This document shows, one piece after another, positions 42,534 to 46,556 of a DNA stretch of 64,000 nt. The DNA is from Aureimonas frigidaquae. GTDB taxonomy: Bacteria; Pseudomonadota; Alphaproteobacteria; Rhizobiales; Rhizobiaceae. Numbering within the stretch: position 1 is the first letter of the stretch; each line of letters begins with the position of its first letter. Under the pieces are notes generated by a model, which was not told the origin of the DNA, did no database searches, and saw only the letters and a program-made list of their open reading frames with translations. The stretch covers positions 1 to 64,000 of the forward strand of contig NZ_BBWR01000012.1 in assembly GCF_001463905.1 (NCBI RefSeq), given 5' to 3'. The position numbers were made by a program, and so were the translations under genes.

Positions 42534-43904
42534 TTATTCCGCGGCGTCGTCCAGCCCGTCCATCAGGCCGGTGGCATAGGGGAGCCGGTCGGCCGCCCGC
42601 GCCTCCGGCAGGCCCTCGACGGCGCGCAACTGCCGGTCCATGGCCCGGCCGCGCGTCCGGGCGCCATCCACGGCATTCTGCGCCTCGCCGAGCTTCTTCT
42701 GAACCTTGTCGAGCACGTCGCCGAAGCGCGAAAACTCCGACTTTACGCCCGCCAGGACCTGCCACACCTCGCTCGAGCGCTTCTGGATCGCAAGCGAGCG
42801 AAAGCCCATGCGCAGCGAGGTCAGGAGCGCCATCAGCGTCGTCGGACCGGTCACCACCACGCGGCACTCGCGCTGCAGATGGTCGATCAGGCCGGGGCGC
42901 CGCACGACCTCGGCGAAGAGCCCCTCCGTCGGCAGGAACATGACGGCGAAGTCGGTCGTATGCGGCGGCTGGACATACTTGGCGGCAATGTCGGCGCCGG
43001 CCTTGCGAATGGCGCGCTCGAGGCCCTTCCCGGCCTCGTCGACCCCGGCGGCATCGCCGCGTTCGGAGGCGAGTACCAGACGTTCGTAATCCTCGGTCGG
43101 CAGCTTCGCGTCGATGGGGAGCCAGACCGTTTCCGTGCCATCGCCCGGCAGGCGGATCGCATATTCGACGCGCTGGCCCGAATGCGGGCGCACCTCGACA
43201 TTCAGCGCATATTGCTCCGGCGTCATGACCTGTTCCAGAAGCATGCCGAGCGTCGCCTCGCCCCAGCCGCCCCGCGACTTCACATTGGTCAGGACACGCT
43301 TCAGATCGCCGACGCCAGTGGCGATGGCCTGCATCTCCCCGACCGAGCGGAAGACGCGCTCCAGATTCTCGTTGACCGTATTGAAGGACGCGCCGAGCCG
43401 CTGTTCCAGCGTGCCCTGCAGCTTCTCGTCCACGGTCAGGCGCATCTCTTCCAGCTTGGCCGCGTTCTCGTGGCGCAGGCTGTCCAGCCGCGCCTCCACC
43501 GACTGGCGCAGAGCCTCCTGGCGGCGGTCGTTGCCTTCGGCCAGGGCATCGAGCCGTCCCGTCACCGCCCGCAGCGCTTCGGCCTGCCGCAGCGTCGCCG
43601 CATCCAGTGTGGTCATCATCTGCGTGCCGAGGCGGTGGAGCGAGGCGCCGACCTCCTCCCGCAGGGCGCGGCCTTCGCCGCGCGCATGCCCGGCATTGAG
43701 CGAGACATCCTCCCGGACCGCGGTCAGCCCGGCCTGGACGACGCTCTGCGTTTCGGCAATCCGCGCATCGAGCTGGTCGAGCGCTTCGGCCACGCTGTCG
43801 GCTGCGGTCTCCTGTCGGCTCAGCCGGACCATCATCCAGCACAGGAGAATAAGGTTCACGCCGGCCAGCGCCGCAACGAGAAGGTCCGTATCGACAAACG
43901 ACAT
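42534..43904 (-). CDS. rmuC: RmuC-family DNA recombination protein
   Basis: A 456-residue member of the RmuC family, which limits DNA inversions at short repeats and has a PD-(D/E)XK nuclease fold. An N-terminal membrane helix (LLVAALAGVNLILLCWMMVRL, residues 7-27) is followed by a long coiled coil to about residue 190, then the RmuC domain with GGWGEATLGMLLEQVMTPEQY, VWLPIDAKLPTEDYERLV (the catalytic D-A-K) and DFAVMFLPTEGLFAEVV. The ATG from 43904 gives the natural N-terminus before the helix. It is divergent from the rhodanese-dnaA unit across a 700-bp gap. Confidence 0.94.
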   Translation of the reverse strand: MSFVDTDLLVAALAGVNLILLCWMMVRLSRQETAADSVAEALDQLDARIAETQSVVQAGLTAVREDVSLNAGHARGEGRALREEVGASLHRLGTQMMTTLDAATLRQAEALRAVTGRLDALAEGNDRRQEALRQSVEARLDSLRHENAAKLEEMRLTVDEKLQGTLEQRLGASFNTVNENLERVFRSVGEMQAIATGVGDLKRVLTNVKSRGGWGEATLGMLLEQVMTPEQYALNVEVRPHSGQRVEYAIRLPGDGTETVWLPIDAKLPTEDYERLVLASERGDAAGVDEAGKGLERAIRKAGADIAAKYVQPPHTTDFAVMFLPTEGLFAEVVRRPGLIDHLQRECRVVVTGPTTLMALLTSLRMGFRSLAIQKRSSEVWQVLAGVKSEFSRFGDVLDKVQKKLGEAQNAVDGARTRGRAMDRQLRAVEGLPEARAADRLPYATGLMDGLDDAAE

Positions 43905-44607
43905 AAAGTGCGGCCCCGGCTTCGACGCGATCTGATCCTGTTTTGTTCTCTCTCCGATCGCTTGCTGCGTCAAGGAGTGCGATTCCTGTGGGTGACGGTC
44001 CAGCCGAATCGAGCGGGGGGTCCGAGGCCATGGAACAAAGCGTCACACATACGACAAGTTGAATCCGGCACGATTCTGCCCACGTCACGCGCAGCAAAAA
44101 TAAGCGAACAGTGTCAATGGTTTACCGAAGGTCGCCGCGACTCTGTTTTGTCATCTTGCGGGCGTCCAGCGGGTTCACGAGAGTCAAGCAAGCGGCGGCG
44201 AAATAAAGTCAAAAAAATCACGCCGCGACGAGATCGGGATGGCGCCCTAACGAATCCGTTGCGGAATCAGCCCATTAATCAAACCGGCTGCAATGTGGCT
44301 TTGTCGTCTCCGCCACAGTGCCACCCCCGCCGAGTCACTTTGCGCGATTCGAAGCTTGCCCCAACCTGTCGCAATGCGTAGCTTCCTCCCAGCGACAAGA
44401 GCTGGCGAAAACGAAGTGTGGGGACAACGCGTGTTTTCCAGAACAAAGTACAAAATCTGGAACAACTCCAGGTCTGAACCAACCGTCGCATAAGCTCTCG
44501 CTATCCCCGAACAGGCATCCGCGCTTCGTTGCGGCGATGCCGACCCGTGTTCTGTTTTCTGTTTCATGCCTGTCGGCCCTGTCGACAGGCCCGTGGAGAC
44601 TATCGCC
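43905..44607. other. Non-coding dnaA upstream region with ten GANTC sites
   Basis: These 703 bp have no convincing gene on either strand and are less GC-rich than the neighbours (for example near 44095-44125 and 44200-44220). They contain ten GANTC motifs, the CcrM methyltransferase recognition site, at 43981, 44006, 44061, 44072, 44139, 44181, 44252, 44264, 44332 and 44346. Base composition predicts between one and two in that span. The region should contain the divergent rmuC and rhodanese-dnaA promoters, and may be a methylation-controlled cell-cycle or replication region. I find no exact TTATCCACA DnaA box, so calling it oriC would go beyond the evidence. Confidence 0.6.
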
Positions 44608-45042
44608 GTGAACAAGGCCTACAAGGACGATGTGACGGTCCAGCAATGCTGGGACGACCTCACAGCCAGCCGGGACGCGTTCCTGATCGACGTGCGGACC
44701 ATGGCGGAATGGAATTTCGTCGGCTTTCCGCTGGCGCCCGACAGCGCGCAGGAGCCCATCTTCATGGAGTGGCAGAGCTTTCCCACCATGTCGGTGAACC
44801 CCGCCTTCGCCGAACGTGTCGCCGCGACGGTGCGCGAGCGTGGCGGCTCGGAGTCCTCCCGCCTCTACTTCCTGTGCCGCTCCGGGGCCAGGTCCATGGC
44901 CAGCGCTGCCGCGCTGACCGCAGCGGGCTTTCAGAACGCGTTCAACATACTGGATGGCTTCGAAGGTCCGGCCGACGAGGAAGGCCATCGTGGCCGCGTG
45001 GCCGGGTGGAAGGCTGCCGGCCTGTCCTGGGTGCAGAAATGA
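44608..45042 (+). CDS. Rhodanese-like domain protein upstream of dnaA
   Basis: A 144-residue single-domain rhodanese. The domain opening [17 protein letters not shown] is near residue 30, and the active loop [13 protein letters not shown] (catalytic Cys in CRSGARS) near residue 93; [29 protein letters not shown] closes the fold. It may transfer sulfane sulfur or sense redox state; no partner is obvious. The GTG at 44608 with GGAGA upstream is chosen; an in-frame ATG at 44566 would add 14 residues. Its stop overlaps an ATG of dnaA by 4 bp, so initiator synthesis is potentially coupled to this gene. Confidence 0.88.
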
Positions 45043-46556
45043 GTCTGGCGACGGGCGGCTTTGGCCGCATCCCCCATCCGGCCGCTGCGGCGGGCCATCA
45101 CGAAGGAACGGAACGCTCGATGCGGACGATGCCGGCGCGCAGCGAAGACGAAGTCATGGAGCGCGTGCGTGCGCGCATCAAGGCTCAGCTTGGGCAGGAT
45201 ATCTACGCTTCCTGGTTCCAGCGCATGAAACTCGATGCGATCCAGCGTGGCTCCGTGCAGCTTTCGGTTCCCACCGCCTTCCTGAAGACCTGGATCAACG
45301 GCCACTATAAGGACTTCCTGCAGGAGATCTTCGCCGAGGAGGTGCCGGGTACGATCCGGGTGGATGTCCAGGTGCGCAGTGCGGCCCGCGCCGCGCCGCC
45401 CGCCGGCGTCCAGCCGATCATGCCCGTGCCGGCCGCCGCCAATGACGGCGATGCGAGCGCCGCGCCGCGCCCGCAGGCCCTGCCGGCCATCGCGATCGAG
45501 CGGCCGGCGAGCGAGTTCGGCTCGCCGCTCGATTCGCGCTATGTCTTCGACGGTTTCGTGGAGGGCGCCAGCAACCGCGTGGCGCTGGCGGCGGCGCGCT
45601 CCGTGGCCGAGAACGGCCCGCATTCTGTCCGCTTCAATCCGCTCTTCATCCATGCCTCGGTCGGGCTCGGCAAGACGCATCTCCTGCAGGCCATCGCCAA
45701 CGGGGCCCTCGCCCGCGCCGACCGGCCGCGCGTCGTGTACCTGACGGCCGAATATTTCATGTGGCGCTTCGCGGCGGCGATCCGCGACAACCAGGCGCTG
45801 GATTTCAAGCAGAACCTGCGTGGCATCGACATCCTGATCATCGATGACATGCAGTTTCTGCAAGGGCGCTCGATCCAGCAGGAATTCTGCCACCTGCTCA
45901 ATGCCCTGATCGACAGCGCACGGCAGGTGATCGTGGCGGCCGACCGGCCGGCCTTCGAACTGGAATCCCTCGACCAGCGCGTGCGCTCACGCCTGACGGG
46001 CGGCGTTTCGGTGGAGATCGCGGCGCCCGACTACGAGATGCGCCGCACCATCCTGAACAAGCGCGCCAGCGACATGCGCGCCGAGGATGCTTCCTTCGAC
46101 ATTCCGGACGAGGTGGTCGACACCATTGCGCGGCGGATCACCGGGTCCGGGCGGGATCTGGAGGGCGCCTTCAACCAGATCGCCTTCCGCCACTCGGTCG
46201 GACAGCCCTTGTCCAGCGAGCATCTGAACGATCTTCTGAACCAGCTTACGCGCAACAATGTCGAGAAGCGCGTGCGGATCGAGGATATCCTGAAGTTCGT
46301 CTCGCGCCACTACAACGTGTCGCGCGCCGATATTCTCTCGGCCCGCCGCACGCGCACCATCGTGCGGCCGCGCCAGATCGCCATGTATCTGGCCAAGACC
46401 ATGACGCCGCGCTCGCTGCCGGAAATCGGACGGCGTTTCGGAGGGCGGGATCATACGACCGTGCTTCACGCCGTGCGCAAGATCGAAGCCGAGCGCGCAG
46501 GCGACGCCAAGCTGTCGGACGAGCTCGACATCATTCGCCGCATGATCGAGGAATAG
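45039..46556 (+). CDS. dnaA: Chromosomal replication initiator DnaA
   Basis: A 505-residue AAA+ initiator that binds the origin and melts it. Domain I begins [25 protein letters not shown]; a variable linker follows; domain III has Walker A in [10 protein letters not shown] near residue 208, Walker [13 protein letters not shown] near 266 and the sensor RVRSRLTGG; domain IV has the DnaA signature [16 protein letters not shown] near residue 467. Two starts are possible: ATG at 45039, overlapping the rhodanese stop (ATGA), and ATG at 45120 preceded by GAAGGAAC, giving 478 residues. The extra 27 residues of the longer form show no conserved pattern. The upstream GANTC-rich gap suggests cell-cycle control by methylation. 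Confidence 0.97.

Follow-up and report, generated by a model that had tools for sequence, protein, structure and literature searches.

A conserved GANTC array upstream of dnaA in Aureimonas frigidaquae and its possible role in methylation-timed replication control

Gene context and density of the GANTC array

We analysed a window of 64,000 nucleotides (C12:1-64000) from the 4.10-Mb draft genome of Aureimonas frigidaquae, which is assembled in 30 contigs. Its DnaA is nearest to that of Aureimonas, with 85% over the best segment for A. altamirensis, and we therefore treat the organism as a member of the Aurantimonadaceae, order Hyphomicrobiales (Rhizobiales). Around dnaA the gene order is rmuC (minus strand), a gap, a rhodanese-domain gene, dnaA, dnaN and a RecF-like gene (Table 1). 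Gene order and a distance of 77 bp suggest that the rhodanese gene and dnaA form one predicted operon. In all 28 Aurantimonadaceae relatives dnaA is immediately preceded by the rhodanese gene, which none of the 52 other loci has there, and by this comparison its presence between the array and dnaA is specific to the family. The rmuC gene (window positions 42534-43904) adjoins the dnaA upstream region here and in both A. altamirensis loci, that is, in 2 of the 80 relatives' loci, and an rpsT-like frame is found upstream instead in 10 of the 11 loci with open frames printed, which suggests that the placement of rmuC beside dnaA is a local rearrangement. Since rmuC is present there in only 2 of 80 loci, the array travels with dnaA and without rmuC, which is an incidental neighbour. 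The genome also contains a CcrM gene (methylase plus RAMA), a GcrA gene, a MucR gene and three HU/IHF-type genes that are candidates for IHF; CcrM is widespread in Alphaproteobacteria. Searches of the window with Rfam at gathering scores and for tRNAs gave no match, and repeats searched for in the dnaA gap did not account for the GANTC sites.

Table 1. Coordinates of genes and sequence features in and around the dnaA upstream gap (window positions)
Feature	Position	Strand	Basis
Intergenic control region separating rmuC from the predicted rhodanese-dnaA operon	about 43905..44565	.	gap of ~660 bp
Array of ten GANTC sites	43981..44350	.	direct count
IHF-like word, one mismatch, at a conserved place upstream of the GAGTCAAG element	44112..44124	+	word match, alignment
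GAGTCAAG element	44181..44188	+	conservation
A/T-rich tract after the GAGTCAAG element	44200..44219	.	alignment
Paired GANTC sites, spacing 12 bp	44252..44268	+	family and Rhizobiaceae comparison
Exact IHF-consensus match WATCARNNNNTTR, overlapping the GANTC at 44264	44265..44277	+	word match
GATTC directly upstream of the -35 word, at -10 from its first base	44346..44350	+	family comparison
Predicted sigma-70-like promoter of rhodanese-dnaA, TTGCCC - 17 bp - TAGCTT	44356..44384	+	conservation
Pair of weak DnaA-box-like words in the predicted leader, each with two mismatches	44419..44442	.	alignment
Rhodanese-domain gene	44566..45042	+	first gene of the predicted operon
dnaA	45120..46556	+	gene search

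The initial annotation had described ten GANTC sites in the gap between rmuC and rhodanese-dnaA, where it expected about one to two. Both the gap and the sites lie where it placed them, with all ten recovered at 43981, 44006, 44061, 44072, 44139, 44181, 44252, 44264, 44332 and 44346, a span of about 770-1140 bp before dnaA. Its expectation also agrees with a first-order Markov model of the gap, which gives 1.6 GANTC per 370 bp and produced ten or more in 0 of 5000 simulations, and the real background is lower still at 1.04 per kb (818 GANTC in 784 kb). This background was taken from the window plus 36 hand-chosen stretches of 20 kb, together 19% of the genome, with two of the stretches placed over gcrA and ccrM and one placed to reach past hemE. 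GANTC is avoided by this genome, and the 64-kb window contains 75 in total versus a mean of 276 in dinucleotide shuffles. The dnaA gap has the top GANTC density in the 784-kb sample with 10 per 370 bp, followed by one place with 6, one with 5 and seven with 4. Among 142 windows of 370 bp at GC ≤0.58 on a fixed grid, the gap's own included, the gap reaches 8 and the maximum elsewhere is 4. The excess is also observed across the 29 family regions, which contain 239 GANTC relative to 87.9 expected from base composition, and when 24 same-composition pentamers were ranked by excess GANTC came first at a ratio of 2.72 with the runner-up at 1.54. The initial annotation had allowed that many intergenic gaps might be equally dense or that close relatives might lack the cluster; no equal cluster occurs in the 784-kb sample, and the relatives keep it, as described below.

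Several other places in the genome also carry GANTC sites close together. The second cluster of the sample (L093:11856-12186, contig C7 at about 91.9 kb, 6 GANTC per 370 bp) sits upstream of a gene for an OmpR-type response regulator, with a Trans_reg_C match and a receiver domain under the cut-off, which we take to resemble Rem of rhizobia. The third cluster, with 5 GANTC per 370 bp, lies upstream of hemE in a stretch (L086:17760-18186) that is origin-like, having 7 GANTC, a one-mismatch DnaA box and several weaker boxes, and an exact CtrA 8-mer is present at L086:18115. Outside of the sample, the GAGTCAAG word occurs together with 5 GANTC within 370 bp at C19:26724 (L232:1501), with lgt and YbjN-domain genes nearby. 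It is also found with 3 GANTC within 370 bp on contig C5 at about 165.7 kb (L223:1501), just downstream of a DNA primase gene, a place that is presumably the dnaG-rpoD gap, the second gene being named from synteny. Finally, three GANTC are located within about 165 bp upstream of gcrA (L094:11280-11427, contig C8).

Conservation and arrangement of the sites among relatives

The loci L002-L029 were counted as Aurantimonadaceae, an assignment that we base on their names. Upstream of dnaA, each of these 28 relatives has 5-10 GANTC per 370 bp, a density not equalled at any other place in the about 9-13 kb compared per locus. For Fulvimarina pelagi the dnaA region holds 6 GANTC per 370 bp, which is barely above background, as 20 stretches of 20 kb from this genome average 2.06 GANTC per kb and 6 of the 20, including the hemE stretch, reach 5 per 370 bp. 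Among Hyphomicrobiales outside of the family, at least 5 GANTC per 370 bp are found in 32 of 52 loci and 4 or fewer in 20 of 52; the dnaA upstream region is the densest place in 38 of these loci, tied in 6 and not leading in 8. Loci of Nitratireductor, Chelativorans and Phyllobacterium usually have 2-4 sites, with 6 in L032. An even draw across the order comprised 61 genomes with A. frigidaquae included, of which 40 were hand-picked and 39 retained because one stretch was too short, and 13 of these 39 reach at least 5 GANTC per 370 bp while 8 of 39 beat shuffles at 0.05. In other orders, 40 genomes were hand-picked by rank and by about 2 kb of upstream sequence from 147 with a DnaA match. Of these, 5 of the 20 with RAMA and 3 of the 20 lacking it have at least 5 GANTC per 370 bp, and 100 Markov shuffles are exceeded at 0.05 by 3 of the former and none of the latter, where some of the RAMA-lacking calls are absences from a list of 107 matches and one RAMA-lacking stretch retained in the count (L188) starts inside dnaA with a partial match. 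A class-wide dependence of the array on CcrM is not claimed, as 5/20 versus 3/20 and 3/20 versus 0/20 are too few. These patchy counts therefore indicate that the dense array belongs to parts of the Hyphomicrobiales plus scattered cases and that it is no rule for CcrM bearers.

Site positions were compared by anchoring each of the 29 family loci at its best match to the -35 and -10 words of the window, with distances taken from the first base of the match; L012, L014 and L027 matched poorly. A GANTC lies within 1 bp of -9 in 24 of 29 loci and within 1 bp of -176 in 28 of 29, and with the same tolerance sites recur at -18 (15/29), -50 (14/29), -93 (17/29) and -105 (13/29). By comparison, 200 random placements gave at most 8 of 29 loci sharing any position, and ten of eleven control pentamers reached at most 11 of 29 at any position; the remaining one, TCNAG, reached 27 of 29 at -173 and is itself part of the GAGTCAAG block. 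Near -9 the GANTC is kept while flanks and middle bases vary. A helical phasing of the conserved positions (10.5-bp period, R 0.59, 8 positions, p about 0.065) was not accepted.

The promoter-like pair, with a predicted transcription start near 44391, is likewise conserved: all 18 aligned sequences, out of the 29 from the family, share TTGC and two T in the -10 word. The spacer between the -35 and -10 words is free of listed GANTC in all 29 family loci. In Caulobacter, cell-cycle transcription starts that have a GANTC up to 50 bp upstream and outside of the spacer show a minimum at 40-60 min (PMC4287350, excerpt). The S. meliloti dnaA gene has a long putative 5' leader (PMC4414408, excerpt), which agrees with a promoter far upstream of dnaA. 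The two box-like words in the predicted leader recur in many of these 18 sequences and might possibly serve DnaA autoregulation.

The -176 GANTC is inside of an invariant GAGTCAA that is present in 29 of 29 Aurantimonadaceae regions and in 33 of 52 other Hyphomicrobiales regions, and that occurs, counted on the plus strand only, in 2 of 864 bins of 800 bp from the A. frigidaquae sample. The GAGTCAAG word has 12 copies genome-wide versus 28 of the word reversed, and the carriers at these 12 places of the genome constitute no clear regulon. The A/T-rich tract that follows the element has ATTTTTATTTTTT as its Rhizobiaceae counterpart. The IHF consensus is WATCARNNNNTTR. Applied after the aligned words had been inspected, it has exact matches in 15 of the 29 family regions and in 14 of the 52 others, on the plus strand every time, relative to a background of 0.0044 per 800 bp in an own-genome sample that is GC-richer than the regions. 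GAGTCAA is preceded at 40-110 bp by an IHF word with at most one mismatch in 21 of 29 family loci. Outside of the family 33 loci have GAGTCAA (19 are without it), and 27 of them carry such a word at that distance, compared with 4 of 178 lower-GC places of the A. frigidaquae genome.

An alignment of 21 Rhizobiaceae-type loci at 80% consensus revealed similar kinds of blocks to those of the family, in the order of a CA..TT..AGG word, GAGTCAAG with the A/T tract, TTGATTC-N6-GATTC, GAGTCAA and a promoter-like word. The Rhizobiaceae GANTC pair is 11 bp apart and occupies a similar place to the 12-bp pair of the window.

Alternative readings of the array

The conserved words could be sites of another regulator, recognizing TTGANTC/GANTCAA, or of IHF, that happen to include GANTC, with methylation as a side effect. 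A TT before or an AA after GANTC is found at 24% of 239 family sites, at 48% of 262 sites in the other 52 loci and at 32% of 166 sites in 40 stretches from the order, as opposed to 3.5% of 742 sites in the genome sample and 5% of 547 sites in flanks of 31 relatives, and the GANTC at 44264 lies partly within a match to the IHF consensus. However, most family sites are without the TT/AA context and yet GANTC itself is in excess, and the persistence of GANTC near -9 amid differing flanks and middle bases also argues against such a regulator, which leaves this reading rather unlikely.

A second alternative is that MucR or another A/T-tract binder shields GAGTCAAG from CcrM and thereby creates a locally hypomethylated switch. 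The genome has a MucR gene, the invariant GANTC adjoins the A/T tract, and shielding of GANTC sites by MucR is known from both S. meliloti and Caulobacter (PMC5172544, excerpt). Against this, dnaA is not among the MucR targets named in the excerpted text, and shielding would concern one element of ten through a binding event that is putative here, so we regard it as distinctly unlikely. It is very unlikely that the gap is nothing special, with GANTC purged from genes and merely tolerated in a long intergenic region. CcrM bearers in general do show intergenic over-representation of GANTC (PMC3973325, excerpt) and other places in the Fulvimarina genome come close, but the other low-GC windows of the A. 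frigidaquae sample do not exceed 4 sites and the positions of the sites are conserved.

The initial annotation had offered either a methylation clock for initiator synthesis or an origin, and it held missing DnaA boxes against a textbook oriC. The latter point is borne out, as positions 43901-45120 contain no DnaA box within one mismatch (three words have two mismatches) and no full CtrA site, TTAA-N7-TTAA, within one mismatch (one 8-mer has one mismatch). The Sinorhizobium origin is at hemE, and in A. frigidaquae hemE is on contig C3 with the window on C12; upstream of this hemE are the seven GANTC, the one-mismatch box and the exact CtrA 8-mer described above. The distance from dnaA to hemE is about 0.33, 0.39, 0.50 and 0.65 Mb in four relatives, if C1 is the dnaA contig, and 1.7-2.0 Mb on the Fulvimarina scaffold. 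An origin would fit the GANTC array, the A/T tract, the IHF-like words and the nearby dnaA. In F. pelagi, too, the 1 kb at the start of hemE, where the origin is expected, holds 8 GANTC but lacks DnaA boxes at up to one mismatch. Neither the window nor 20 sampled F. pelagi stretches gave a clear switch in GC skew. Because positions 43901-45120 have neither a DnaA box nor a full CtrA site within one mismatch and hemE is elsewhere, the origin reading is unsupported and extremely improbable. The other half of the proposal fared better in that CcrM-responsive control of dnaA is the best-supported reading, with the clock being what we infer from it.

Probable CcrM-responsive control of dnaA and comparison with known systems

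CcrM-responsive control of dnaA is best supported because the genome has CcrM and GcrA genes, because the number and position of the sites are conserved, and because GANTC shows the top excess. The array is thus probably the upstream CcrM/GcrA/IHF control region of the predicted rhodanese-dnaA operon, and it is best read, by analogy, as a many-site version of the Caulobacter dnaA promoter. CcrM would methylate the array sites late in the cell cycle, and once the replication fork has passed all sites would be hemimethylated and stay so until CcrM is present again. Transcription of dnaA would then be altered by a reader that senses methylation, most likely GcrA beside the -35 word, with the upstream DNA presumably bent by IHF. 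If the Caulobacter dnaA promoter is a guide, full methylation would give more output and hemimethylation less, and initiator synthesis would fall once dnaA has been replicated; many sites would make for a steeper switch that relies less on any single site. The array thereby suggests that DNA methylation helps time production of the replication initiator. A wider and fairly doubtful proposal is that Aurantimonadaceae and Rhizobiaceae share an IHF-organised 'methylation array' in which the TTGANTC/GANTCAA sites are read jointly, perhaps by a protein other than GcrA, and in which hemimethylation of the whole array as the fork passes would act as a steep, redundant initiator timer far from the origin.

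Published work bears on CcrM-responsive control of dnaA in both directions. In Caulobacter, CcrM activates the dnaA promoter (PMC2877005, excerpt) and the effect of promoter methylation on dnaA transcription is small but significant (PMC3973325, excerpt). GcrA of S. meliloti and of B. abortus binds tightest to fully methylated DNA (PMC3667746, excerpt). On the other hand, the article on A. tumefaciens CcrM nowhere in its main text calls dnaA CcrM-regulated (PMC11514494), a figure legend gives DnaA levels as unchanged in Caulobacter lacking ccrM (PMC3667746), which speaks against a large effect, and an excerpt on S. meliloti cell-cycle promoters reports that GANTC is not enriched (PMC8725594). 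The case for CcrM-responsive control is also weakened because 20 of the 52 non-family loci have at most 4 sites, only 13 of the 39 order genomes reach 5 and the contrast in Fulvimarina is weak. Methylation might also act in the opposite direction: in the A. tumefaciens gcrA promoter region, where 6 GANTC are present in 250 bp, it is repressive (PMC11514494, excerpt).

Among the titles and abstract openings listed by literature searches, we found no GANTC array at dnaA in Hyphomicrobiales. As far as we have seen, the principle is known and the many-site, IHF-linked and positionally conserved form at dnaA is apparently undescribed. To our knowledge, little has been described of how CcrM is linked to replication control outside of Caulobacter, and the conserved array at the dnaA promoter, with up to ten sites, is a direct and testable candidate for such a link. 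Its fixed architecture, consisting of the -9, -93 and -176 sites, the IHF-like word and GAGTCAA, allows each site to be mutated separately. A previous survey of alphaproteobacterial cell-cycle promoters scored GANTC from -400 to +100 bp around the start codon (PMC2877005, excerpt), and a count of this type would miss the array since its nearest site is 774 bp before dnaA, beyond 400 bp.

Comparison with known systems places the region among several relatives in kind. It resembles a Cori-type origin beside hemE in having several GANTC and IHF-like words, and IHF acts at Cori; it differs in that DnaA boxes and full CtrA sites are missing at up to one mismatch and hemE is elsewhere. It resembles MucR-shielded promoters in that a GANTC adjoins an A/T tract in a MucR-bearing organism, whereas the GANTC there is bound and hypomethylated (PMC5172544, excerpt), features that are putative here. 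The A. tumefaciens gcrA promoter is likewise a dense, multi-site region at a cell-cycle gene of the same order, with the differences that the gene is another one and that repression by methylation is a feature of that promoter (PMC11514494, excerpt); its 6 GANTC in 250 bp also exceed the three in about 165 bp upstream of the A. frigidaquae gcrA. With the Caulobacter crescentus dnaA promoter the region shares GANTC upstream of dnaA in an organism that has CcrM and GcrA, the sensitivity to full as against hemimethylation being a prediction here. The Caulobacter dnaA gene has few GANTC, near the gene, whereas in A. frigidaquae ten sites extend over 370 bp in front of a rhodanese gene.
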